DNA of 64,000 nt from an uncultured Aquimarina sp. (GTDB taxonomy: Bacteria > Bacteroidota > Bacteroidia > Flavobacteriales > Flavobacteriaceae): NCBI RefSeq assembly GCF_947500065.1, contig NZ_CANMQT010000016.1, forward strand, positions 1-64,000, given 5' to 3'. Below the pieces are notes generated by a model that saw nothing but the letters and a program-made list of their open reading frames with translations, made no database searches and was not told the origin of the DNA. The first letter of the stretch is position 1; each line of letters starts with the position of its first letter. Of the stretch, positions 1 to 26,762 are shown piece after piece. A program made the translations under genes and the position numbers.

Positions 1-74
1 TATCAGAATAAAACTCCATAATTCCAGCGTATCCCTCCGAAAAAATTGTCCGATCAAAATGGACAATTGCACCT

Positions 75-134
75 AACGTTGCTTGTATGTTGCGTTTGCT
101 TCCCGAAGGGAGCATATGCAATATACAACCTGTT
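75..134 (-). repeat. attC-like site, family C (60 bp), copy C3
   Basis: AACGTTGCTTGTATGTTGCG...GCAATATACAACCTGTT; imperfect inverted repeat, 60 bp from AAC to GTT. Confidence 0.75.
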
Positions 135-148
135 ATGTCTTTTTTATT

Positions 149-730
149 TTATTCAAATAGTTGTTTCATCTCTTCATTCGCTGAGTTTTCAGCAAGCTTT
201 TCGCCCAAACTCCGTATTTCATTTTCCCAATTTTTCCATTGTTCACTATTAGGGTTGTTAACGGAAATTTGAGTCTCAATATTTCTTGCAATCACATTAT
301 ATTCATAAGATACTCCGTCAAGAGCTATTCCGTTATTTGCAGTAAACAATTCTAGGTCATTAACCTTCCAAACAGGATCATTAATTCCGTTAATTTGCTC
401 CTCAAAATGAAGCTCTCTCACCTTTCCTTTTGAGTTATAAAGAAAGATACCCTGAATTAGTTTTTCAGGATTTTTAATGCCTCGGAACTCACTTTCGTTA
501 AATTTTATGGTAATTAAACCTCCAAAACCTACAAATGACCTACTTATTTTGGCAATCCAAATGTAATCAACTTCTATTTCGTTATCTCTCCAACCTTTAT
601 CATTTCTTATTGTATGCCCTCCGCTATAAAGTCCGTTTAATCCAAATTTAAGAGCAAGAGATTTTTTTACAGTTTGGTTAAATTGAAAAGTATTTAACTC
701 ATAAGATTGTTTTGTTTCTTCTCTACTCAT
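149..730 (-). CDS. Cassette-borne hypothetical protein
   Basis: 193-aa ORF between attC-like sites C3 and B1. Confidence 0.7.
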   Translation of the reverse strand: MSREETKQSYELNTFQFNQTVKKSLALKFGLNGLYSGGHTIRNDKGWRDNEIEVDYIWIAKISRSFVGFGGLITIKFNESEFRGIKNPEKLIQGIFLYNSKGKVRELHFEEQINGINDPVWKVNDLELFTANNGIALDGVSYEYNVIARNIETQISVNNPNSEQWKNWENEIRSLGEKLAENSANEEMKQLFE

Positions 731-747
731 TTTTTGTAATTAGACAT

Positions 748-910
748 AACGTTTAATATATGTGTCGTAGCAGGGCAAAATGTTACCCAATTATCGACAA
801 AAACTGCGCATTGGTTGCTAACTTTTACATTCTGCAAGCATTGCGCTTTACCAAAAATACAAGAACCATTCGATTGATCACTTAGCTGCTATGACCACAT
901 ATATATTGTT
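748..910 (-). repeat. attC-like site, family B, copy B1
   Basis: AACGTTTAATATATGTGTCGTAGCAG...CTGCTATGACCACATATATATTGTT; outer arms complementary with one bulged base. Confidence 0.75.
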
Positions 911-920
911 GTAACCAGTT

Positions 921-1598
921 TTATATTACTGATTTTCTTGATATGTTCGATAGACTTGTATTTCCTTGCTTTATTAGTCTCTTAGCAACTTCTTTTCTTC
1001 CTTTTCCGTCATGTTCATCTACATATTTTGATTCTTCTATGGTCAATAGTTTTACATTCACAAATAATATTTCTTCAAGGCTCAACTTTAACCTATTTGG
1101 AACGTATTCAGATGGCAGTCCTAACAATAATCCAATTTTTTCCTTTTCTTCATTCATTTCATCTGGAAAAGGAACATTAAAGGCATCTGTAGAAATATAG
1201 GTATGGTCTTTTATTGAATAAAGAACGTTAGGATTATTTGCACAAATTTGGCTGGCTTTGTATAGCAATGAAAATTGCCATGAATTTTTAGCCTCATCTA
1301 TATTATTCCATTTTTCATTGCATTCTACAAATAACTCAAGACCAAGACCATTATATTCGAAATGGTCAGGATTATTATCTCTGTCAGAATAGGGGTCACT
1401 TAATCCATCACTTGCAAATATGGTTCCACTTTCAGTTTTTATCATTAAGAATGATTGTCTCAAACCTGGCCACTGAGGACCACCTAAAAAAGCAGGATTT
1501 ATAACATGCGATATCACATCCGAATTGACATCTCCAAGTTCTGACCAAAATTTTTCTCTTTCATTTAAAGATTTTTCAAAGTGTTCTTCAGTAGTCAT
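921..1598 (-). CDS. Cassette-borne protein, possibly suppressor-of-fused (SUFU)-like
   Basis: ORF 921-1679 trimmed to MTTEEHFEK (1598), because the longer start runs into the attC-like site; SUFU resemblance is by eye only. Confidence 0.5.
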   Translation of the reverse strand: MTTEEHFEKSLNEREKFWSELGDVNSDVISHVINPAFLGGPQWPGLRQSFLMIKTESGTIFASDGLSDPYSDRDNNPDHFEYNGLGLELFVECNEKWNNIDEAKNSWQFSLLYKASQICANNPNVLYSIKDHTYISTDAFNVPFPDEMNEEKEKIGLLLGLPSEYVPNRLKLSLEEILFVNVKLLTIEESKYVDEHDGKGRKEVAKRLIKQGNTSLSNISRKSVI

Positions 1599-1615
1599 AT
1601 TTATAAATTGGTTAC

Positions 1616-1777
1616 AACGTTTAATATATGTGTCGTAGCAGGGCAAAATGTTACCTTGTTTTTTGATATTTCTGCGCATTGGTTGCTAACTTTTCCATTC
1701 TGCAAGCATTGCGCCTTACCAAAAATACAAGAATCATTCGATTCAGCACTTAGTTGCTATGGCACATATATCGTGTT
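1616..1777 (-). repeat. attC-like site, family B, copy B2
   Basis: AACGTTTAATATATGTGTCGTAGCA...TGCTATGGCACATATATCGTGTT. Confidence 0.75.
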
Positions 1778-1803
1778 ATCAGCTTTTCTTTTTTTAAGAT
1801 TTG

Positions 1804-2265
1804 TTAGTCTTCACTTCTAAAACAGGTTATTAGTATATTTTCTTTATTAATAAACACTGTACTTATATCAAAAGTATTTTCCGTTAATGGGTTCCAACTT
1901 GATCCATTCTCATTTGACCTCCATTGATTGTTAAACCAATTTGAATAACAAAAAGAGTCATTATTAAATTTATTAAGCAGTTCCGTATGAAATTTTTTAG
2001 CTATCTCGGTTGGAGTTATTCTAGAAGAAGAATATGCAATGTCAAATTCTATTGAATCTAAAAGCAATTCAGAACATTTTAAGAATTCAATTGAGTTCCA
2101 TTTTTCTCCCAGTTCATTCCAGCCTTCAATTTTGCAAATTTCGTCAAGTTTTGATATTTGATTTTTTTCGATAGATAAATCTATATCAGATATAGAGTAT
2201 AGATATGCATTTCCCCAAATATATTCACTCATATTTAATTCTTCGAATATATCTTTTTTATCCAT
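1804..2265 (-). CDS. Cassette-borne hypothetical protein
   Basis: 153-aa acidic ORF between attC-like sites. Confidence 0.65.
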   Translation of the reverse strand: MDKKDIFEELNMSEYIWGNAYLYSISDIDLSIEKNQISKLDEICKIEGWNELGEKWNSIEFLKCSELLLDSIEFDIAYSSSRITPTEIAKKFHTELLNKFNNDSFCYSNWFNNQWRSNENGSSWNPLTENTFDISTVFINKENILITCFRSED

Positions 2266-2283
2266 ATACTTTTAATTGCTGAT

Positions 2284-2343
2284 AACGTTTCTTGTATGTT
2301 GCGTTTGCCTGCCGAAGGCGACATATGCAATATACAAATTGTT
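2284..2343 (-). repeat. attC-like site, family C (60 bp), copy C1
   Basis: AACGTTTCTTGTATGTTGCGTTTGCCTGCCGAAGGCGACATATGCAATATACAAATTGTT. Confidence 0.78.
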
Positions 2344-2347
2344 GTAC

Positions 2348-3145
2348 TTAGTGATTTTTTAATTTCAGCACGATTTTATTATTTCCAAGTAAAAAATAGT
2401 CAGTTTTATTATCTCGCACAAATTCGGTCAGTATTAATTCCTCGTTTTCAAATTTCCAATTGAATTGTTTACGTTCTTTACTCATGGAGTTTACCAGTGT
2501 CACAACATCCATATTTTTATGAGGATGGCTTGTACCAAAATAATTCCTCACTTCGTACTTGTCGAAGTCTTTAAAGTTTTTCAATTTTCCATTTTTTTCG
2601 AATATCACATTCGTACTACTTTTTAGGTTAGCGTATGTTCCCGCAATTAGATTTTCATTAAAGTAATTTGTTATGCTTGAACTTATTTTATGTACTCTAT
2701 CTTGGTTTTCAAGAAGACTTTTTAAATCATTCCTTTTACCGAAAACATATTTTGTTGAATCAATTCTTTCCTGATTGGGGAACTGAGTTAATAATAGTTT
2801 ATCTTTTTCTTTAAATAATGCATACTTTCCTCCAAAGGAATTAAATACAGCTAGAGTATCAGAGTTGTAATTCAGTTTGTAATTCAATTCTATAATAGAA
2901 CCATAACTTTTTAATGAATCGTTTTTTATTTCCAAAAGAATCGCAAACCAAGTTGGTGGTTGCAATCTATATTTAGCAATTTGTTTATCAGCAAGTATAT
3001 TGTCAAAATAATTGTTTAGCCCCCAAACACCATTTAATTCGGAAACATTCGATTTGGGTGTTTGTAATTCAACCCTTTCTTTTTTTTGTTTTGAATTACA
3101 GTTCAAACAAAGGAAAATTATTAATATGTAAATTGCGTTTCTCAT
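2348..3145 (-). CDS. Cassette-borne putative lipoprotein
   Basis: Start trimmed to MRNAIYILIIFLCLNCNSK (lipobox-like Cys); upstream ORF portion lies in the attC-like site. Confidence 0.65.
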   Translation of the reverse strand: MRNAIYILIIFLCLNCNSKQKKERVELQTPKSNVSELNGVWGLNNYFDNILADKQIAKYRLQPPTWFAILLEIKNDSLKSYGSIIELNYKLNYNSDTLAVFNSFGGKYALFKEKDKLLLTQFPNQERIDSTKYVFGKRNDLKSLLENQDRVHKISSSITNYFNENLIAGTYANLKSSTNVIFEKNGKLKNFKDFDKYEVRNYFGTSHPHKNMDVVTLVNSMSKERKQFNWKFENEELILTEFVRDNKTDYFLLGNNKIVLKLKNH

Positions 3146-3152
3146 TAAGTAC

Positions 3153-3316
3153 AACGCCAAATATATGAATCGGAGCAAGGCAAGCAAGCCTGAACCAATC
3201 GATCTATCTGCGCATTTTTATTTCTTGATTAATTTATAAAAATCTAGCGCCATTGCAAAAAGGAAATGACCATTCGATCTAACACTAAACTTTGCTCTGA
3301 TTTTATATATAATGTT
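3153..3316 (-). repeat. attC-like site, family A, copy A1
   Basis: AACGCCAAATATATGAATCGGAGCAAGGC...TTTGCTCTGATTTTATATATAATGTT. Confidence 0.78.
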
Positions 3317-3325
3317 GTAGGGAGT

Positions 3326-3778
3326 TTATTTTTTCAGGAGATTTTCAAATTTACGTGGACTATTACTTTCAAATTCCCAATCAATAATTGGTTTTGGAAA
3401 TTCTATATACCAATTATCTTTTATTAATTTATGGTTTATAATCCAATCATATTTATGATCTCCAATCATTTCAAATTCCGCATGAATAGTTACGTCAAAC
3501 CAAAACAATTTTGTTAAAAGTTCTTCAAATTTTTCAATCCACAAATGCCATTCATATTCCAGAGTTCTGTAACTCGCTCCAAATGTTATTATCTGATCTC
3601 TAAAAATTCCTTGTTCGTTTGGTACTGAAAACATACTTCGATTTATCCAAGGAAATTCCGAATCATTTTCCGGTAAACTATTTATTATCTCAATATTCAT
3701 TCTATGCAACTTATAATAGTCTTCAGTTTTCCATGTCGCTCCGTTTATTCTTCCGTATATTATAGTATGATGTGCCAT
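3326..3778 (-). CDS. Cassette-borne hypothetical protein
   Basis: 150-aa ORF between attC-like sites A1 and A2. Confidence 0.65.
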   Translation of the reverse strand: MAHHTIIYGRINGATWKTEDYYKLHRMNIEIINSLPENDSEFPWINRSMFSVPNEQGIFRDQIITFGASYRTLEYEWHLWIEKFEELLTKLFWFDVTIHAEFEMIGDHKYDWIINHKLIKDNWYIEFPKPIIDWEFESNSPRKFENLLKK

Positions 3779-3795
3779 TTTGTTTAATTACCTAC

Positions 3796-3957
3796 AACGC
3801 CAAATATATGAATCGGAGCAAGGCAAGTAAGCCAGAACCAATCGATTTATCTGCGCATTTTTGTTTCTTGTTTAATTTATAAAAATCTAGCGCCATTGCA
3901 AAAAGAAAATTACCTTTCGATCTAGCATTAAATTGCTCTGATTTCATATATAATGTT
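3796..3957 (-). repeat. attC-like site, family A, copy A2
   Basis: AACGCCAAATATATGAATCGGAGCA...TGCTCTGATTTCATATATAATGTT. Confidence 0.8.
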
Positions 3958-3981
3958 AGCAATTTTTTATTTAAGACGCCA

Positions 3982-4323
3982 CTATTCAGTCACTTTCATT
4001 TTTAAGAGTCTTATAGTTTGACTAAATTCGGAATTCTGTTTAGGTGAAGTCTTATATGTCCAATTTCCTCGGTTTTTTAGTATTATTTTCAGAACCCAAG
4101 GGTCATTCTTAGAAAATATTTGAGCAGTTAGAGAGGTTAACATATAAAGTTTTGTCCACCAATTGTTATTTGGATCATAATGCTCTATATCTTTAATGTT
4201 TGAATATTTGAAAGTTCTAAATTCCGAATAATCAATTGCTTTAATCTCAACATGATCAGTCCAAATTTTTATTAGAGGGTATCCTTTTTCATCTAATACA
4301 AGTGCTTCATTTTCCATTAGCAA
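3982..4323 (-). CDS. Cassette-borne hypothetical protein (identical copy at 7113-7454)
   Basis: 113-aa translation identical to the second copy. Confidence 0.7.
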   Translation of the reverse strand: MLMENEALVLDEKGYPLIKIWTDHVEIKAIDYSEFRTFKYSNIKDIEHYDPNNNWWTKLYMLTSLTAQIFSKNDPWVLKIILKNRGNWTYKTSPKQNSEFSQTIRLLKMKVTE

Positions 4324-4327
4324 TGTT

Positions 4328-4786
4328 TTATTCCTTTAATTCGTGCCAACCGGATTTCGCATTCATTCCATATCTTTTCAAGGTGATTTCTTTTCTTTTG
4401 AATCTCAATTCAACTAATGCTGCGATATTTTCTTTTCCATTCATCCATACCAATTCATTATCTACTAATTCCTTAATTAGTTCAATTTTTAATTCATCTG
4501 AACTAAGTTTCGTGTTGTTTTCATAACTCAAAAGACAGGATGTTCCATCCATATAAACAATGATTTGAAGTTTAAGTTTACCTCTTAGTTTTTGTTGGGC
4601 ATCATTTGTTATATGTTTAGTTAGCAGCTTTATTAATTCATTTTTATCTTTTTTTGCGGTTTCAATTTCACTCTCTAAAGCAAACCTCTTGGTGTTACAA
4701 CCTTCAAATTTTTCTTCATAAATATTTTGAGAGTATGAGTATAAAGAAACCAAAATAGAGAAGAGTAATAGGTTTTTTTTAATCAT
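4328..4786 (-). CDS. Cassette-borne secreted hypothetical protein (identical copy at 7459-7917)
   Basis: 152 aa; signal peptide-like MIKKNLLLFSILVSLYSYSQ. Confidence 0.72.
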   Translation of the reverse strand: MIKKNLLLFSILVSLYSYSQNIYEEKFEGCNTKRFALESEIETAKKDKNELIKLLTKHITNDAQQKLRGKLKLQIIVYMDGTSCLLSYENNTKLSSDELKIELIKELVDNELVWMNGKENIAALVELRFKRKEITLKRYGMNAKSGWHELKE

Positions 4787-4803
4787 AATATTGAATTATT
4801 GCT

Positions 4804-4968
4804 AACGCCAAATATATGAATCGGAGCAAGGCAAACGAGCCAGGACCAATTGATCTATCTGCGCATTTTTATTTCTTGTTTAATTTATAAAAATCTAGCG
4901 CCATCACAAAAAGGAAATAACCTTTCGATCTAGCACTGAACTTTTGCTCTGATTTCATATATAATGTT
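4804..4968 (-). repeat. attC-like site, family A, copy A3
   Basis: AACGCCAAATATATGAATCGGAGCA...TTGCTCTGATTTCATATATAATGTT. Confidence 0.78.
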
Positions 4969-4983
4969 ACAGGTAGGCATTTT

Positions 4984-5490
4984 TTAACAAGATGTCCAAT
5001 AACTGAATTTTATTAATTTTCCATTATTGATTTCAAGCACTATTCCGTCGTCTCTCTTTTCGTGATGAACACTAAATGAGCCATTTAATTGACCTTTATC
5101 TATCCGATCTTTGATTTGTTTTCCAAATATTTCCGCAAGCGTATTCAATTCCGTTTCACAATTCAATTTATGTTTTCCATAAACTAGTTCAACAGAGTTA
5201 TCATTCTCAAAATCAATCTTTTCAATTAGATATTTTTCTTTTTCATTTCCGGTAAATTTCACCTTTTCATAATCAAGAGTAAAGTATTTGACTCCTTGCC
5301 ATTCAGAAGATAGCCCTCCGCAATCATAGTTCGGTTCAAATTCTCGGTTTGGATTCCCAAATTTTTCGACAATTTTTGATTTCGAAGAAAAGAATTTGAG
5401 TTCATTGAATTCAAACTTATCAAAATCCAAGTTCTGTCCGAAACCTATTTGAGTTGATATTAATAATATTAAGGTATGATATATTTTCAT
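4984..5490 (-). CDS. Cassette-borne secreted hypothetical protein
   Basis: 168 aa; signal peptide-like MKIYHTLILLISTQIGFGQ. Confidence 0.7.
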   Translation of the reverse strand: MKIYHTLILLISTQIGFGQNLDFDKFEFNELKFFSSKSKIVEKFGNPNREFEPNYDCGGLSSEWQGVKYFTLDYEKVKFTGNEKEKYLIEKIDFENDNSVELVYGKHKLNCETELNTLAEIFGKQIKDRIDKGQLNGSFSVHHEKRDDGIVLEINNGKLIKFSYWTSC

Positions 5491-5510
5491 TATTTATTCT
5501 GCTTACCTGT

Positions 5511-5570
5511 AACGTCTCTTGTATGTTGCGTTTGCCTGCCGAAGGCGGCATATGCAATATACAAATTGTT
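5511..5570 (-). repeat. attC-like site, family C (60 bp), copy C2
   Basis: AACGTCTCTTGTATGTTGCG...GCAATATACAAATTGTT, exactly 60 bp. Confidence 0.78.
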
Positions 5571-5580
5571 ACCACCTTTT

Positions 5581-6909
5581 TTATATTTCGTTTTCAAGTA
5601 GGTAAAAATAGTTTTTGAGTCCATAAGAATATTTACTCTGATCAGAACCTAAAGTTTTGAATTCCTTTTTCAATACCTCTATTAAATCAGATTTTATATT
5701 TTTTCCTTCAATTTTTGCGCAGTTTAGTTTTACCCAATGAATTTTTGAAGAATTAGGAAAGTCTATCAATGCTTTTTCCAAATCAGGGTTATCATATTTG
5801 TTTTTATCTGCTAATCCGATAAAATAGCTTATCGCGAATTTCTCACTTTGGTATTCGTTCCATCCTTTTTTGTCTGTTTGTTCAGAAACGTGTCCAGTTG
5901 CAACTGATTCTAGGTATGCATAAATATTTAAAAGCTCTTCATCTTTATATTTGTCAGCTAAATCAATCATTTCTTGTCCTCTCTTTTCAAAGAATTCTTT
6001 TTCATCTAATAATCTATTTATAAATGAAATTCTTAGTAAATCAGAAGCTACTTTTCCATTAACGGGCATTTGGTTATTATCAAGAATCAATTTCGAATTT
6101 AGTAATGCTGTTTTAATAGAATCTTTAGGACTTGATTTTTTAGAGAGGTGTTTGATTTTGTTATATGCAGATAGTTGTAAGTATTCTTTACTGTCAGAAC
6201 CAAAAGTACTTTTAATTGTATTTATATCTTTTTCTAAAAAGTATTCTTGGATATTATTATTCCACCAATCTAATTCCCAATTCATATCTAGGAAAATCAA
6301 CTCGTATGCACTTTTAGAATCCTTAGATTTAGTTTTTACTATTAAATCTGACCGTTTTTTAATTTGATCGACTTGACCGTGAATGATATAAATAGCTTTG
6401 TCAATTCCAGTATGATTTTTGGGATGATTTGCTTTTTTCCAATGTTCAATTGCTTTTAAATAATTATCTATATTTAAATAGCATTCACTTAACCAAACAT
6501 CAACTCTATAATCCGTGTCTTTTGTCTGTTTATAAATTTCATAATGTTTAATAGCCGTTTTATAATCTCCAATTCGATGACTTTCTATTGCATATTCTAA
6601 ATTGAAATTTAATTCATTTGGATATTTCTCATAAGCAGATTTATGTAAATCATAAGAGACTTTTGAATCAATATTGTATAATGCTCCACCAATCAGATAT
6701 TTTTGGTATTCATTTGTGGCTTTAGAAACTAATTCATTTATACACTCGTCACAGTCTTTATTTACTAAACAATTTGAAAAGTACTTTAAAGCAGGAGTTA
6801 TTTCAGTTTGAGCTTTTTTTATTTTTTCTGCATTGTTTTCAGTATCAACTTGAGCATTACAGTTAAAGAACAAAATATTAAGGAATATGAATAATAATTT
6901 TTTTCTCAT
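5581..6909 (-). CDS. Cassette-borne TPR-like lipoprotein
   Basis: Start trimmed to MRKKLLFIFLNILFFNCNAQ; helical TPR-like repeats. Confidence 0.65.
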   Translation of the reverse strand: MRKKLLFIFLNILFFNCNAQVDTENNAEKIKKAQTEITPALKYFSNCLVNKDCDECINELVSKATNEYQKYLIGGALYNIDSKVSYDLHKSAYEKYPNELNFNLEYAIESHRIGDYKTAIKHYEIYKQTKDTDYRVDVWLSECYLNIDNYLKAIEHWKKANHPKNHTGIDKAIYIIHGQVDQIKKRSDLIVKTKSKDSKSAYELIFLDMNWELDWWNNNIQEYFLEKDINTIKSTFGSDSKEYLQLSAYNKIKHLSKKSSPKDSIKTALLNSKLILDNNQMPVNGKVASDLLRISFINRLLDEKEFFEKRGQEMIDLADKYKDEELLNIYAYLESVATGHVSEQTDKKGWNEYQSEKFAISYFIGLADKNKYDNPDLEKALIDFPNSSKIHWVKLNCAKIEGKNIKSDLIEVLKKEFKTLGSDQSKYSYGLKNYFYLLENEI

Positions 6910-6926
6910 TTTTGGTAATTGGTGGT

Positions 6927-7088
6927 AACGCCAAATATATGAATCGGAGCAAGGCAAGTAAGCCAGAACCAATCGATTTATCTGCGCATTTTTGTTTCTT
7001 GTTTAATTTATAAAAATCTAGCGCCATTGCAAAAAGAAAATTACCTTTCGATCTAGCATTAAATTGCTCTGATTTCATATATAATGTT
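6927..7088 (-). repeat. attC-like site, family A, copy A4
   Basis: Second copy of A2, offset 3131. Confidence 0.8.
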
Positions 7089-7112
7089 AGCAATTTTTTA
7101 TTTAAGACGCCA

Positions 7113-7454
7113 CTATTCAGTCACTTTCATTTTTAAGAGTCTTATAGTTTGACTAAATTCGGAATTCTGTTTAGGTGAAGTCTTATATGTCCAATTTCCT
7201 CGGTTTTTTAGTATTATTTTCAGAACCCAAGGGTCATTCTTAGAAAATATTTGAGCAGTTAGAGAGGTTAACATATAAAGTTTTGTCCACCAATTGTTAT
7301 TTGGATCATAATGCTCTATATCTTTAATGTTTGAATATTTGAAAGTTCTAAATTCCGAATAATCAATTGCTTTAATCTCAACATGATCAGTCCAAATTTT
7401 TATTAGAGGGTATCCTTTTTCATCTAATACAAGTGCTTCATTTTCCATTAGCAA
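7113..7454 (-). CDS. Cassette-borne hypothetical protein (copy of 3982-4323)
   Basis: Identical translation. Confidence 0.7.
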   Translation of the reverse strand: MLMENEALVLDEKGYPLIKIWTDHVEIKAIDYSEFRTFKYSNIKDIEHYDPNNNWWTKLYMLTSLTAQIFSKNDPWVLKIILKNRGNWTYKTSPKQNSEFSQTIRLLKMKVTE

Positions 7455-7458
7455 TGTT

Positions 7459-7917
7459 TTATTCCTTTAATTCGTGCCAACCGGATTTCGCATTCATTCC
7501 ATATCTTTTCAAGGTGATTTCTTTTCTTTTGAATCTCAATTCAACTAATGCTGCGATATTTTCTTTTCCATTCATCCATACCAATTCATTATCTACTAAT
7601 TCCTTAATTAGTTCAATTTTTAATTCATCTGAACTAAGTTTCGTGTTGTTTTCATAACTCAAAAGACAGGATGTTCCATCCATATAAACAATGATTTGAA
7701 GTTTAAGTTTACCTCTTAGTTTTTGTTGGGCATCATTTGTTATATGTTTAGTTAGCAGCTTTATTAATTCATTTTTATCTTTTTTTGCGGTTTCAATTTC
7801 ACTCTCTAAAGCAAACCTCTTGGTGTTACAACCTTCAAATTTTTCTTCATAAATATTTTGAGAGTATGAGTATAAAGAAACCAAAATAGAGAAGAGTAAT
7901 AGGTTTTTTTTAATCAT
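7459..7917 (-). CDS. Cassette-borne secreted hypothetical protein (copy of 4328-4786)
   Basis: Identical translation. Confidence 0.72.
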   Translation of the reverse strand: MIKKNLLLFSILVSLYSYSQNIYEEKFEGCNTKRFALESEIETAKKDKNELIKLLTKHITNDAQQKLRGKLKLQIIVYMDGTSCLLSYENNTKLSSDELKIELIKELVDNELVWMNGKENIAALVELRFKRKEITLKRYGMNAKSGWHELKE

Positions 7918-7934
7918 AATATTGAATTATTGCT

Positions 7935-7986
7935 AACAATTGTATATAGTTACAAAAGGTAACTATATATCTATTTTGTGAGGAGG
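7935..7986 (-). other. Candidate attI-like recombination site
   Basis: Perfect 11-bp inverted repeat TATATAGTTAC-AAAAG-GTAACTATATA (7943-7969) between the recombinase stop and the AAC/GTT of the first cassette. Confidence 0.65.
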
Positions 7987-9126
7987 CTAATTTAGTAAAT
8001 CTTTTATGCCTTTGTAGGATTTTATTGCTACATGAGTATATATTTCTGTAGTTTTAGTTGATTTATGACCTAATAATGCTTGGATATATCTCAGGTCAGT
8101 GCCCTCCTCCAAAAGATGTGTAGCAAAACTGTGCCTTAGCATATGAGGAGATACTTTTTTTATAATAGATACTTTCAGAGCAGCTTCTTTTACCACCTTT
8201 AAGATACTCGAAGGACTATATGGACTCCCAGTATTTGCCCCTTCAAATAAATATACTTTCGGCTTATAGGCTTTGTAATAACTTCTTAAAAGAAGCAGTA
8301 CACTCTTGTTAAGTATCGTGTATCTGTCATGATTTCCTTTAGCCTGTTTTACTTTGATTAATAATCGTTTACTATCAATATCCTCTGGTTTTAAATGTAA
8401 TATCTCACTTCTGCGAAGCCCTGAAGAATATAAAAGACTAATAATACATTTATGTTTCAGATTAGTAGTGGCTTCAATCATTTTTATAATATCACCTTTT
8501 GCAAGTATATCAGGCAGTTGAATAGATTTTCTTGGTCGTTCAATACTATAAAATCGATTTGGCATTCCCATAACTACTTCATAATAAAACTTAATACTAT
8601 TAATAGCCTGATTTATATAACTGTCAGATTTGTTTCTATGAACCAAAGATTGTAGATAGTTCCGTACCTCGTCTTCAGATAGCTCGATGATTTCTTTATC
8701 CGGATACGTGTTTATGAATTTTTCGAATTGAGAAATATAAGTTTTACAAGTACTTACCGAGTATCGTTTAAGCTCTAGTTTTAATAAATATGCTTCTGGA
8801 ACATACTTAAAAGAATTTGTCTTAGAACGATTCCGATACCAATTAATATCCGGCAATGCATTTTCTCTAATCACCTTTTCCTTGAAAAAGAAGTTACAGT
8901 TGATGCGGGCTATCCCCCTAAATTTGTTGAAAATCAAATCTAAATTTTTCTTGGTATTCATAATATATACCATTCCGTATTGATTGCTCCACTTGGGATT
9001 AGGTAATTCTTTGATTAAAGCCTGAATTACTTTATCAGGATAGAATTGTAAACCTATCATTTTCTGTTGCTTAATCAATAAGTGCTTAAGAGTAATATGC
9101 TTATTAATAGGATTCATGTGTGTCAA
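7987..9126 (-). CDS. Tyrosine recombinase, integron-integrase-like in context
   Basis: LLYSSGLRRSEI...HMLRHSFATHLLEEGTDLRYIQALLGHKSTKTTEIYTH: catalytic Arg, HxLRH, LGH and TxxxYTH motifs; N-terminal SAM-like domain. Confidence 0.95.
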   Translation of the reverse strand: MTHMNPINKHITLKHLLIKQQKMIGLQFYPDKVIQALIKELPNPKWSNQYGMVYIMNTKKNLDLIFNKFRGIARINCNFFFKEKVIRENALPDINWYRNRSKTNSFKYVPEAYLLKLELKRYSVSTCKTYISQFEKFINTYPDKEIIELSEDEVRNYLQSLVHRNKSDSYINQAINSIKFYYEVVMGMPNRFYSIERPRKSIQLPDILAKGDIIKMIEATTNLKHKCIISLLYSSGLRRSEILHLKPEDIDSKRLLIKVKQAKGNHDRYTILNKSVLLLLRSYYKAYKPKVYLFEGANTGSPYSPSSILKVVKEAALKVSIIKKVSPHMLRHSFATHLLEEGTDLRYIQALLGHKSTKTTEIYTHVAIKSYKGIKDLLN

Positions 9127-9162
9127 AGATGTATCAATACATAATCAATTGCAATCAAAGCC

Positions 9163-9197
9163 GTAGAATTAAACGTTTAATAAACGTTTAATTCTAC
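9163..9197. promoter_or_regulatory. Perfect 17-bp inverted repeat (1-nt spacer), candidate operator or recombinase-binding site
   Basis: GTAGAATTAAACGTTTA-A-TAAACGTTTAATTCTAC between divergent recombinase and Zn-ribbon ORFs. Confidence 0.6.
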
Positions 9198-9245
9198 AGG
9201 TAACATTTATCATATAATAGACACATAACTATAAGATGAAGTAAA

Positions 9246-9620
9246 ATGATAAAATGTTTGTACTGTAAGTCAATAATAACTGGAAGAAAAGATAAAAGAT
9301 TTTGTAACTCTTATTGCAAATCTGCTTATCACAATATTCAGAATCGCGAAAAAGAAGACACATTTTTTAAAAAAGTAGATAAACAACTAAAAAAGAATAG
9401 AAAAATATTAAAAGGTTTTAATAAAGCTGGTTTAGTAACTGTGCGTAAAGAGAAATTAGTAAAGGAAGGTTTTGATCCAAAGTATTTTACACATTACTGG
9501 AAAAATAACAAAGGACAAGTATATCTTTTCTGCTATGAATATGGCTTTCTGGAGTTAAAAGAAAACACCAAAAAGAAATACCTTTTAGTCATTTGGCAAT
9601 CATACATGGATACTACTTAG
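9246..9620 (+). CDS. Small Zn-ribbon protein
   Basis: CLYCKSIITGRKDKRFCNSYCKSAYH: CxxC...CxxxC pattern. Confidence 0.7.
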   Translation: MIKCLYCKSIITGRKDKRFCNSYCKSAYHNIQNREKEDTFFKKVDKQLKKNRKILKGFNKAGLVTVRKEKLVKEGFDPKYFTHYWKNNKGQVYLFCYEYGFLELKENTKKKYLLVIWQSYMDTT

Positions 9621-16139: not shown

Positions 16140-16754
16140 ATGAAAAATATAGCTTTTTATAACGAAGAATTTGAAATCCATGGAATTTCCATTCCAAAAT
16201 TTGAATTAAAAGAAGGTGAGCTAGTTAGAATTTATAGTTCTAGAATTTACCCTGAAAATGTGCCAGTAAATTTTGATTTGACCCTTGAATTGATTCGTCG
16301 ATTTCAAAATAAAAAAACTGATTTTCCTTGGGCTAGAAACTACAACCAGAATTCGATTATTGAATATATAAAGCCATTAACAATAAAAACTTATTTAATT
16401 AATAAAATGCATATTAATATTCAAAGTGCAGTCAGGATAGTTGATGAAATAGGTATTACATTGCATGAAAAATTTGAATATTTAGGTTTTACAAAGAAAA
16501 AGGCATTAATCATTAAAGCTAATTTTGAAAAGAACAAGTGTATCCTTTTCGATTACTATGGTGTGGATGCGATGGGGATTGATTTTTTAGAAAAAATCAT
16601 TAATGTAGAAATTGAAAGAGGAAAGTCTGCCATTGCATTTGATAATTTATATTATGCGCACCAAACTGAACCTTACTCAAATATTACACCTATAAGAATA
16701 GCTTCAGGATTTAACCCATATCTAATTAAAACTAATCCGCCATTGCATTTTTAA
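16140..16754 (+). CDS. Hypothetical protein
   Basis: 204-aa ORF. Confidence 0.55.
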   Translation: MKNIAFYNEEFEIHGISIPKFELKEGELVRIYSSRIYPENVPVNFDLTLELIRRFQNKKTDFPWARNYNQNSIIEYIKPLTIKTYLINKMHINIQSAVRIVDEIGITLHEKFEYLGFTKKKALIIKANFEKNKCILFDYYGVDAMGIDFLEKIINVEIERGKSAIAFDNLYYAHQTEPYSNITPIRIASGFNPYLIKTNPPLHF

Positions 16755-16756
16755 TG

Positions 16757-16875
16757 GCGTCCTGGCGGGCTATCCACTATATCTTTTTTATAAGTACCCT
16801 TCGATAATCTCAGTGCACTCATAAAATAAGATTAGACCTGTCCTGAGCCTGTCGAAGGGTTCCTATCCCTGACGC
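16757..16875. repeat. 119-bp interspersed repeat R1
   Basis: GCGTCCTGGCGGGCTATCCACTATATC...CCTGTCGAAGGGTTCCTATCCCTGACGC; ends GCGTC/GACGC; matches R2. Confidence 0.75.
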
Positions 16876-16934
16876 AGCTCTTAGTTAGTGTAGCGATTTG
16901 ATAATGATGAATCAATAAATGATTTTTTTTATTT

Positions 16935-20056: not shown

Positions 20057-20601
20057 GAGTTTGTTTGTGTGTGTGTAGGTTTACTTAAAAAATTAAATGC
20101 ATAATTTGAATTATTAGGGTATATCAACTCATGGACATTCATGTCCATAATAGATACACCTTACTTGCTAAAGAAACGGGAGGAAAGATATCACCAATTC
20201 CAATCCAAAGATTGAAATTTAAAATAGACGGTTCTGGAGCGCATCTATTTGTGGCATTGTTTCATTGCATGTTAGGTGGATCAAACTTGTTTAATTCAAG
20301 TTAGTATCCAAGAAGAATAACACAGAATATTCTAATTTATTATCAATTATAAGGAAGCTTATAGACTTTAAGTCATTATTTGTCAGGGTAGAAGATAGCT
20401 TGAAAACAAGGTTTTAAATAATAAAATCAATATTTACAAGGGTTTAAAGGTGTTTTTTGATTGAATTCCTGTACAATGTGATTATATCTACGTAAGAGTA
20501 TATTCACAAAGAAAATTAGTTTTTTAGATGAACTGTATCACAATTTAGAATTAATAAACTGTTTATAATGAGTGTTATAAACAATGTGGATGATTTTAAT
20601 A

Positions 20602-20721
20602 GCGTCCTGGTGGGCTATCCACTATATCTTTTTTATAAGTACCCTTGGAGAGCCTCAGGGTACTTCATAAAATAAGATTAGACCTGTCCAGAGTCTGTCG
20701 AAGGGTTTCTATCCCTGACGC
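20602..20721. repeat. 120-bp interspersed repeat R2
   Basis: GCGTCCTGGTGGGCTATCCACTATATC...CTGTCGAAGGGTTTCTATCCCTGACGC; close match to R1. Confidence 0.75.
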
Positions 20722-20851
20722 AAAATCGATACTATAGGTAGCTAATGTAAACCTAAGATTGTTATGTGTTATACATCGTGTTAGCCTAAGTATTAATAGG
20801 AGTTAGGCGAAATTAGTTTCTTTAATCCCCTTCGGATTAATGTATAGGTTA

Positions 20852-23874: not shown

Positions 23875-23898
23875 TTAATTATTTTTTTGATGACTTAC

Positions 23899-24091
23899 AA
23901 TGATTAATATATGTGTCGTAGCTGAGTAAAATGTTACCTAGCTTTTCGATTTATCCCTGCCTACCTGTCGGATGGCAGGCAGGTGCGCATTTTTATTTCT
24001 TGTTCAATTTATAAAAATCCAGCGCCAATGCAAAAAGGAAATGACCTTTCGATCTAGCACTAAACTTTACTCTGGTTTCATATATAATGTT
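23899..24091 (-). repeat. attC-like site, chimeric B/A (F1), degenerate
   Basis: Family B left half (AATGATTAATATATGTGTCGTAGC), CCTGCC... hairpin insert, then family A right half ending CATATATAATGTT; AAC changed to AAT. Confidence 0.65.
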
Positions 24092-24112
24092 AGGCATTCG
24101 TTTTTCTACTCA

Positions 24113-24688
24113 TTATGGATTAAATGGGCAACTTGTCCAAGGATATGCGCATTGGTTTTTTCTTTCAATCCAACCAGTATATTTGTTTTTGTTATGTGTA
24201 AAAGAAACTTTTGCCCAAAGTCCATCAGTGTCTATCAATTCTAGTTTTAAAAATTTACCTGATTTACAAACTAATTCAGAATTTAAGTCTGGTTTTTGAT
24301 AAAAAGGAACTCCTAAAGAATCTGGTAAAGACATATCTGCAATGTTAATTTTTAGATTTTTAAGCTTAACCCACATATTAAATGTAGAGGCTAGTTTCTT
24401 ATTAATTGAATCTTCCTTTCCAGGACCAACCATTAAATTTTGAATTTTAGCCCAACCATTTCGCGATTCTTTTATTGCGATTTTATACCATTGAGTCCTT
24501 ATTTTCTTATAATCAATTTTTAAAGACATTATTGATTTTCCTTTAATATTATCATAGATTACCAATGAGTCACTAGAAGTATTGTCAAAATAACATTCCA
24601 CATAATCATCATAAAAAAACTTAGTTTTCGTTTGAGAATTACACACGAATGAATAGAAAATTACTATAACTATTATTATGTTTTTCAT
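24113..24688 (-). CDS. Hypothetical secreted protein, possibly SH3-like
   Basis: Start trimmed to MKNIIIVIVIFYSFVCNSQ; C-terminal LELIDTDGLWAKVSFTHNKNKYTGWI resembles bacterial SH3. Confidence 0.6.
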   Translation of the reverse strand: MKNIIIVIVIFYSFVCNSQTKTKFFYDDYVECYFDNTSSDSLVIYDNIKGKSIMSLKIDYKKIRTQWYKIAIKESRNGWAKIQNLMVGPGKEDSINKKLASTFNMWVKLKNLKINIADMSLPDSLGVPFYQKPDLNSELVCKSGKFLKLELIDTDGLWAKVSFTHNKNKYTGWIERKNQCAYPWTSCPFNP

Positions 24689-24695
24689 GTTCGTT

Positions 24696-24796
24696 AAGAT
24701 ACATAGTTTACACAAGTTAAAGATTAGGTGTTTACACTAAATATACACAGACCTTTAGGTTTAGTACAAACGCCCTATGTTTTTTATACCGTGTTG
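24696..24796 (-). repeat. Degenerate attC-like site (D1)
   Basis: CTAAATATACACAGACCTTTAGGTTTAG...CTATG...CGTGTTG resembles the 3' half of family B copy B3; outer AAC lost. Confidence 0.4.
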
Positions 24797-24803
24797 TTCG
24801 TAG

Positions 24804-25784
24804 TTATTTTTCCATTTGCTTTAGAATCCAATCCATAAGTTCATGTTTATTTATAGCATCCCAAGTTGATTGGGTATTCTTTTTTTGTGATGGATTATCT
24901 TCAGGTTGTAAAACAATTAATTCAGTATTTTTATTTCCTGACAGTTCCAACTCAGCTAAAAAACCAACCATATCTGTCGAATTATTCTCATACAAAGTTC
25001 TTAGTTGCTTTGTTAACTTATATTTTATTGCAGGTTCTATATATGCCCTAACAGCAAAACCTTTGTAAATCTTAACATTTTTATTTTTTTCATCAAAGTA
25101 ACTGTATGATGAGAAATTGTGATAACTCTCTGGATTAGTTTTGGGAGTACCTTTCAAATGTGTTTCCAATAAATAATTTATAAATTTCGGTTCCCAAAGG
25201 TCAATTCGGTTTATTCTGATATCACGTTTATGTTGATACCATTTTCTTGTAAAATCCAATGTGAAATTGCAAATGACAATACCTTTTATGTTGAGTTGAA
25301 ATTCGAGATTACTCTCTTTCATAAATTTAATATATCGCATCGCTCTATGTCCAACTAAACTTGCTCCTAAAAAGAAAATGTTGTCATTTGGTAAATTATG
25401 TTTATCGAAGATTTCTTGAATTAGCTTGTGCGTAGAAATCATAGATGATTTAGAAAAGTAAAAGTCAAGAGGAATTTCGGTTGAAACTGACAATACCGCA
25501 AAGCCTTTTTCCAATGCTTGAGTATACATCTGTTTTGAGCTCCTGTTCTTCTTGTCATACCTTGAATCCTCAAGGAAAATAAGCACACCTTTAAGTTCTT
25601 TATTTTCAGGAAGCATTAGAGTATAACCTTTTTGAATAAAAGGGAAAAAGTCATTTTCTCCCGTTCCAACTCTAAGGCTATCATTTTTTGCTGGTTCGTA
25701 ATATTCAACCATTTTCTGTGAAAAAGAATTTATACTTAAAAGAATAAAAAAGAGCAAAAAAAATAGCTTAAAAGTCAATTTCAT
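24804..25784 (-). CDS. Putative secreted alpha/beta-hydrolase-like protein
   Basis: Signal peptide; FFLGASLVGHRAMRY nucleophile-elbow-like motif. Confidence 0.5.
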   Translation of the reverse strand: MKLTFKLFFLLFFILLSINSFSQKMVEYYEPAKNDSLRVGTGENDFFPFIQKGYTLMLPENKELKGVLIFLEDSRYDKKNRSSKQMYTQALEKGFAVLSVSTEIPLDFYFSKSSMISTHKLIQEIFDKHNLPNDNIFFLGASLVGHRAMRYIKFMKESNLEFQLNIKGIVICNFTLDFTRKWYQHKRDIRINRIDLWEPKFINYLLETHLKGTPKTNPESYHNFSSYSYFDEKNKNVKIYKGFAVRAYIEPAIKYKLTKQLRTLYENNSTDMVGFLAELELSGNKNTELIVLQPEDNPSQKKNTQSTWDAINKHELMDWILKQMEK

Positions 25785-25808
25785 TATTGGTTGTTATTAA
25801 TTACGCAC

Positions 25809-25998
25809 AATGTTTAATATATGTGTCGTAGCCGTGCAAAATGTTACCCAACTCTCGACATTTCCCTGCCTACCTGTCGGATGGCAGGCAGGTGCGCATT
25901 GATTGCTGTTTTTTCATTTTTGCAAGCATTGCGCCTTCATAAATATACAAAGACCTTTCGATTTAGGCTTAATCAACTATGATCACATATATCGTGTT
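25809..25998 (-). repeat. attC-like site, family B, copy B3 with hairpin insertion
   Basis: AATGTTTAATATATGTGTCGTAGC...ATCACATATATCGTGTT; CCTGCCTACCTGTCGGATGGCAGGCAGG insert. Confidence 0.65.
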
Positions 25999-26006
25999 GT
26001 ACACAG

Positions 26007-26762
26007 TTATTTTATAGCTTTAATCAGATTTTCCTTGGCTAACTTTAAAATTTCATGTAATTCTTTTAGAGATATTTCTTCTGCGTTATTAAAGTCAACT
26101 AGAACATGGTCATATTTTTTAGGATATTTTTCTTGTATTGCGTCTCTAACGAAGTTTACCGCAGGTCTTAGATGGCGATACTCTCCATCAACAATAATAG
26201 ATGATTTATAGAGCGCACAGAATAAACTATAAATGTTGTTAGACTCACATATTCGATTATCATTTTTATTCCAGCTTTTCTTAGAATCAATTAGTTTAAT
26301 AGTCTTTTCAATAATTTTCACTTCAATTTCACTAGGTTTGAACCAATTTCCTTGTAATTGTGCGTCTTGAAAGTTAAATTCTTTAATGACCATAGGGAGT
26401 ATTTTTGTCCCGTCTTCAAAGTTTCCAGCATAATAGCCATCTGTATATTGAATAAGTGTTGCTATTCGTTTAGGCATATTAGGCCAAGAAATCTCTACGA
26501 ATCTTTGAACTGTATCGTTTTTGATGATGGTGAATTCCATTGGAGATTTGCCATATGGAGCTAGAATGATAGTAGTTAAAGCCTTCCCATCCTTAATTAT
26601 ATTATACCTTCCCTGATGCACTTTTCCATTCTCATCAGTGTAGGATCCAAACCAAAGAAGTTCTTTCTGTGCGAAAATATTACTAGAAACGAAAAATAGA
26701 AGTAGTAAAAGAAGAAGATTTGTGTAAGACGGTGATTTGATTTTTTTGATTGATGATTGCAT
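26007..26762 (-). CDS. Hypothetical secreted protein
   Basis: 251-aa ORF with hydrophobic N-terminal region. Confidence 0.6.
   Translation of the reverse strand: MQSSIKKIKSPSYTNLLLLLLLFFVSSNIFAQKELLWFGSYTDENGKVHQGRYNIIKDGKALTTIILAPYGKSPMEFTIIKNDTVQRFVEISWPNMPKRIATLIQYTDGYYAGNFEDGTKILPMVIKEFNFQDAQLQGNWFKPSEIEVKIIEKTIKLIDSKKSWNKNDNRICESNNIYSLFCALYKSSIIVDGEYRHLRPAVNFVRDAIQEKYPKKYDHVLVDFNNAEEISLKELHEILKLAKENLIKAIK

Follow-up and report, generated by a model that had tools for sequence, protein, structure and literature searches.

Exact duplication of a probable mobile gene cassette beside an I2-free tyrosine recombinase in Aquimarina, with related arrays across Bacteroidota

Cassette array and duplicated unit

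We analyzed 64,000 nucleotides (nt) of DNA from an uncultured Aquimarina sp. of the family Flavobacteriaceae (assembly GCF_947500065.1; contig NZ_CANMQT010000016.1, positions 1 to 64,000 of the forward strand), referred to here as the window. Near its start, nine gene cassettes (75 to 7934; units of 643 to 1,416 bp) lie on the minus strand, 3' of a tyrosine recombinase gene, with the main cassette genes all in one direction (Table 1). Each cassette is closed by a hairpin site, which measures about 60 nt in some units and about 163 nt in others and has AAC at its start and GTT at its end. One unit, which carries two open reading frames (ORFs), is present twice, once next to the recombinase gene and once three units further out.

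The original prediction held that this unit is duplicated exactly at an offset of 3,131 bp, that identity ends at AAC triplets, and that the copy next to the recombinase occupies the attI position. Base-by-base comparison of the two intervals bore out all three claims. All 1,008 positions match at that offset, and the minus-strand ORFs of 152 and 113 amino acids (aa) are identical in both copies. The AAC 3' of each copy is also common, giving a shared block (AACGCC...GCTAAC) of 1,011 bp with AAC at both ends. Identity neither passes these triplets nor starts inside the unit: at the left edge, there is a C/T mismatch at the first base before the AAC, and at the right edge, the match is at chance level from the first base past the AAC. 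On this comparison, the crossover is placed only somewhere within the shared GTT/AAC triplet. Two other cassettes (4804 to 5510 and 5511 to 6926) separate the copies, whose flanks differ in sequence on both sides. Copy 1 directly follows the recombinase gene and lies at an attI-like site, because an attI-like repeat (7943 to 7969) and a GTT (7937 to 7935) adjoin it. The unit has no third copy in the genome (6.57 Mb; 69 contigs), and profile and domain searches assigned its 152- and 113-aa proteins to no convincing family.

Table 1. Features of the recombinase locus in the window (all on the minus strand)
Feature	Position	Content	attC-like site	Own-end match (nt)
Tyrosine recombinase	7987-9117	376 aa from ATG at 9117; 379 aa from longer TTG-start ORF to 9126		
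attI-like site	7935-7969	AAC/GTT 7935-7937; inverted repeat TATATAGTTAC (7943-7953) / GTAACTATATA (7959-7969)		
Cassette copy 1, first in array	6927-7934	ORFs 7459-7917, 7113-7454; start GTTAGCAAT, end ATTGCTAAC	6927-7088 (AAC...GTT hairpin)	
Cassette	5511-6926	TPR-like ORF 5581-6909 (TPR matches)	5511-5570 (short)	6
Cassette	4804-5510	ORF 4984-5490	4804-4968	7
Cassette copy 2	3796-4803	ORFs 4328-4786 (152 aa), 3982-4323 (113 aa)	3796-3957 (identical to 6927-7088; sequence comparison, site scan)	
Cassette	3153-3795	ORF 3326-3778	3153-3316	5
Cassette	2284-3152	ORF 2348-3142	2284-2343 (short)	7
Cassette	1616-2283	ORF 1804-2265	1616-1777	6
Cassette	748-1615	ORF 921-1601; SUFU domain, E value 4.5e-6	748-910	7
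Cassette; array runs off contig start	75-747	ORF 149-730	75-134 (short)	6

Cassette ends and recombination sites

On the minus strand, each of the nine units starts with GTT and about 6 nt that are reverse-complementary to the sequence preceding the AAC at the unit's own far end, as in GTTAGCAAT...ATTGCTAAC for the duplicated unit and GTTACAGGTA...TACCTGTAAC for another cassette. The match after the GTT spans 5 to 7 nt in all nine (mean, 6.2), versus a mean of 0.86 for ends of different cassettes, among which the sole high values came from the duplicate pair. Together with the junctions, these self-complementary ends support the prediction that the cassette behaves as one recombination unit with its bounds at AAC/GTT.

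Within the same family, 112 of 301 genomes had a relative of the recombinase at an E value of ≤1e-60 (about 55 at 53 to 68% identity). We took the surroundings of 20 loci and of 80 named loci (about 100 in total) and counted cassettes only where at least 6 nt matched after the GTT. This yielded 144 cassettes in 30 of the approximately 100 recombinase loci, all of them 3' of the recombinase, with none on the 5' side and none in shuffled sequence. Cassettes were present in 21 of the 22 close relatives having at least 2 kb of downstream sequence, and more deeply branching array-bearing relatives occur in Arundinibacter, Rufibacter, Aquiflexum, Algoriphagus, Algibacter, Carboxylicivirga, and a Chryseobacterium plasmid. 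The alphaproteobacterial relatives had no such arrays in the loci scanned, and viral contigs matched only with distant recombinases.

The hairpin sites (60 to 195 nt, with cassette-specific outer boxes) have the features of attC, i.e., AAC/GTT bounds, R''/R' complementarity, and a hairpin with an unpaired spacer. A scan anchored at the AAC that made no room for this spacer found almost nothing and was replaced by one that allowed it. Regarding strand asymmetry, stem mismatches favored bottom-strand G.T pairs by 376 to 21 (191 distinct sites), and the bottom strand folded more stably in 169 of 189 sites. These counts are not independent, because sites within one array are related; averaged per locus, the bottom strand was the more stable in 29 of 30. 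Folding z-scores were weak for single long sites and clear for short sites and for the whole set. The bottom-strand base after the AAC was G in 184 of 191 sites, as reported for most classical attC sites (PMC2727003). The R''/R' complementarity of classical cassettes is 9 to 11 nt (PMC2727003); in 143 distinct own-end pairs of the present system, pairing reached about 7 bases after the GTT, position 8 of the start was invariably A (143/143) and faced mostly G, and positions 9 to 11 paired again. A search of positions 1 to 9300 of the window against Rfam gave no match.

The interval from the recombinase stop codon to the first cassette is likewise conserved: 27 of 37 close relatives have an inverted repeat, a few nucleotides, and a GTT there. 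The repeat arms averaged 9.2, versus 5.2 in shuffles. The palindrome is kept among relatives while its sequence changes, and the first cassette starts at this palindrome and GTT, 3' of the recombinase.

The recombinase and the tet(X) cassettes

The recombinase contains the Pfam domains Phage_integrase and SAM_4 and scored 215 bits against the XerA-type profile NF040815 and 184 bits against the integron-integrase profile TIGR02249 (cut-off, 265). The range for TIGR02249 was 182 to 210 bits, below the cut-off, and three true IntI among the distant relatives scored 385, 446, and 459. The catalytic residues (R235, K260, H325, R328, H351, and Y360) are invariant in two alignments of relatives (A1 and A2), and an insert at the I2 position is absent from every row of both. 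Alignment to Vibrio cholerae IntI4 breaks at this IntI-specific segment, which has 26 residues in the recombinase versus 68 in IntI4. The I2 helix has been described as necessary for cassette capture and as found in no other protein (PMC7790495). The best PDB match of the structure model (predicted local distance difference test score, 89) was the integron integrase 2a3v, followed by XerA. In the recombinase tree, in which two array-bearing rows (L129 and L138) are unplaced, neither the three IntI nor the Xer proteins of this genome grouped with the Bacteroidota enzymes, though deep supports were moderate. On this evidence from alignment, profiles, and tree, the recombinase is not an IntI but belongs to a separate lineage without I2. 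The tacit step in the original prediction to an integron integrase therefore needs correction, and the rule it invoked, that integron integrases cut within the AAC/GTT triplet, is borrowed by analogy for this enzyme.

At its N terminus, the recombinase carries an additional domain of about 100 aa (residues 1 to 100; 8818 to 9117) with the order strand-strand-helix-strand-strand-helix-strand, for which there was no significant structural match. Its likeness to the HARP domain of SMARCAL1 is weak, and we do not claim it. In three array-bearing relatives (L104, L112, and L116), the match to the recombinase spans the catalytic part alone, which argues against the N-terminal domain replacing I2.

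Among plasmids, a tblastn search with the recombinase matched the N-truncated product of "xerD" on tet(X3) plasmids of Acinetobacter at 52% identity; in the tree, this protein sits inside the array-bearing Bacteroidota group. In these plasmids, tet(X3) starts at GTTATGTGCC, directly past an attI-like palindrome. The 3' end of the unit no longer matches its own start, so we regard tet(X3) in Acinetobacter as a former rather than an intact cassette. Elsewhere, tet(X) forms a 1,330-bp unit running from GTTATGTGCC to ...GGCACATAAC-site-GTT, which is present in five Flavobacteriales genomes and in plasmids of Riemerella, Empedobacter, Myroides, and Sphingobacterium. The 1,330-bp tet(X2) cassette is 100% identical in seven contexts and diverges exactly at the GTT, with several different upstream and downstream neighbors that begin there. 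Cassettes of this type thus move as units, as both the duplicate in the window and tet(X2) demonstrate. Neighboring units carry aadS, lnu, estT, catB, blaOXA, and others; in loci L260 to L264 and L280 to L285, on plasmids and chromosomes of Bacteroidota, tet(X), estT, catB, aadS, lnu, and blaOXA occupy units with the same boundaries. By the cassette scan, tet(X) homologs at about 60% identity (L265 to L279) lie outside cassettes. The adjacency of xerD and tet(X) has been recorded without a mechanism (PMC7494873, PMC7473080), and a Chryseobacterium survey noted XerD near tetX and catB (PMC11194056).

Interpretation and further arrays

We consider it probable (roughly 85%) that what was duplicated here is a mobile gene cassette belonging to an integron-like system that uses an I2-less recombinase and is widespread in Bacteroidota. 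Own-end complementarity, strand bias, the attI-like site, the position of the recombinase, and whole-unit mobility give the system the anatomy of an integron; apparently, it also works like one but is run by a different recombinase. We call it integron-like because the domain that defines IntI, reported as necessary for cassette capture (PMC7790495), is absent.

The platform consists of the recombinase gene, upstream of an array in the same direction, and the attI-like site between them; its cassettes hold either a single gene or two, together with one attC-like site. Once closed into a circle, a cassette would pair its start (GTT and about 7 nt) with its own complementary end (about 7 nt and AAC) as an R box. 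The single-stranded site, preferably the bottom strand, would fold into an R-box stem, an unpaired spacer, and an L-box stem. The neighboring recombinase most likely catalyzes the reaction on this folded bottom strand, and we infer that it cuts within the GTT. By joining the GTT of the circle to that at attI or at another cassette, it could add a cassette at the front, remove it, or copy it, and a recent event of this kind would account for the identical copies, of which one occupies attI and the other lies three units further out.

Like integrons (IntI/attI/attC; e.g., class 1 and the Vibrio superintegron), the system has a single-gene cassette array, hairpin sites bounded by AAC/GTT, own-end R-box complementarity of about 10 nt, an unpaired spacer, G after the bottom-strand AAC, a favored bottom strand, and a platform site beside a tyrosine recombinase, with the newest cassette at the platform. 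Unlike IntI, the recombinase lacks I2, scores under the IntI cut-off, falls outside the IntI clade, and has an extra N-terminal domain in its clade; its gene lies upstream of the array in the same direction, and the attI-like site is a palindrome. Integrons of the Treponema denticola type share an integrase gene in cassette direction but have a classical IntI.

Three observations weigh against this interpretation. The I2 segment that the recombinase lacks is reported as necessary for cassette capture by IntI (PMC7790495); therefore, either its function falls to another part or the reaction is a different one. Extra stem bases are common and lie more often on the 3' arm, versus the 5' arm in classical attC (PMC2727003). 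Finally, no array could be detected for a number of deeper relatives (many among the approximately 100 loci, some with little downstream sequence).

The strongest alternative, which we consider unlikely, is that the recombinase acts in the fashion of Xer on double-stranded cores, as in pdif modules, and that the hairpin-like sites are merely paired inverted binding boxes. XerA is the nearest family by sequence, the attI-like site is palindromic, perfectly or nearly so, and the catalytic domain, like that of XerC, XerD, and XerA, lacks the I2 that is tied to single-strand recombination in IntI. However, the box half outside the GTT varies among cassettes and matches only the other end of its own cassette, as expected of a folded circle but not of a double-strand core shared by all cassettes. 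Both the mismatches and the stability favor a single strand, a bias for which a double-strand site would have no need. The sites are long cassette-end hairpins of 60 to 195 nt rather than short dif-like cores of about 28 bp flanking a module, and the recombinase gene heads a gene array, unlike in Xer/pdif systems.

It is very improbable that a classical IntI in trans moves or formerly moved the cassettes, with the neighboring recombinase a bystander and the array a cluster of attC sites lacking integron-integrase (CALIN). AAC/GTT bounds, R-box complementarity, and G after AAC are common to these sites and classical attC, but in 30 loci the arrays are on the 3' side of the recombinase and in none on its 5' side, with the conserved attI-like site between. 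Furthermore, profile searches detected no IntI above the cut-off in this genome or in the 301 genomes of the family; the latter search had no positive control, though TIGR02249 gives true IntI 385 to 459 bits.

About equally improbable is an assembly artifact as the source of the second copy. The genome is a draft, several of its 69 contigs end inside array repeats, and the window, which begins at base 1 of its contig (C16), contains a 1-kb exact repeat; yet assemblers usually collapse exact repeats rather than duplicate them, and both copies have distinct, well-formed boundaries. Least plausible is the copying of a 1-kb stretch by ordinary homologous recombination or segmental duplication: repeated sites within arrays could provide homology, but this is in effect excluded by the junctions, since identity stops exactly at the triplet on both sides of nonadjacent copies, the right flanks (attI-like versus attC-like) have nothing in common past the AAC, and tet(X) has the same boundaries in many unrelated contexts.

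As regards the wider class, it seems to us somewhat more probable than otherwise that integrons of a second class, free of I2, occur throughout Bacteroidota and capture folded single strands by means of a non-IntI lineage, and that these, not classical integrons, put together the tet(X)/estT/catB/aadS/blaOXA arrays of Riemerella, Empedobacter, and their relatives. The recombinase lineage would then represent either a state before I2 or an independent origin. Standard integron-detection software requires the IntI-specific domain (PMC9668308), and complete integrons have been reported in very few Bacteroidota (PMC9024848). Systems with an I2-free recombinase are overlooked because the software requires this domain and I2 is described as necessary. 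We found no description of an I2-free cassette system in the open-access literature (preprints and subscription journals lay outside the search) and no explanation for tet(X) movement in its searchable part. With attC-like sites and an I2-free recombinase in one system, the origin of single-strand cassette recombination becomes directly testable.

The cassettes of such systems include tet(X), a tigecycline-resistance gene. For the "xerD-tet(X)" pairs of Acinetobacter and flavobacteria, treated only as neighbors of unexplained significance in PMC7473080 and PMC7494873, the comparison places the xerD upstream of tet(X3), in N-truncated form, within this recombinase family and the start of tet(X3) at its attI-like GTT, with the mismatch of the tet(X3) 3' end as the difference. 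The proposed platform provides a concrete means by which tet(X) and other resistance genes could spread in Bacteroidota, a point left open in PMC7473080.

Beyond the main array, other contigs of the genome hold about 35 to 40 further units, and several contigs begin or end within an array. A small array on the minus strand of the window (23897 to 26008) has sites that closely resemble those of the main array (in part, 92% to 3209-3316), with AAT instead of AAC and no own-end match; it looks as if it were a relic, decayed and immobile, and is a possible natural negative control. Unrelated to the array, an intergenic repeat of about 130 bp occurs at 16749 to 16876 and 20594 to 20722 (89 to 95% identical).

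SUFU-domain proteins are encoded in two different cassettes, one in the window (748 to 1615) and one at L030:14411-15109; members of this family are met among immunity proteins. A cassette on another contig of the genome (C26; L032:2439-4345) encodes a GmrSD_N protein (NsnA-like in PADLOC) and a HEPN-like neighbor, which form a candidate defense pair.

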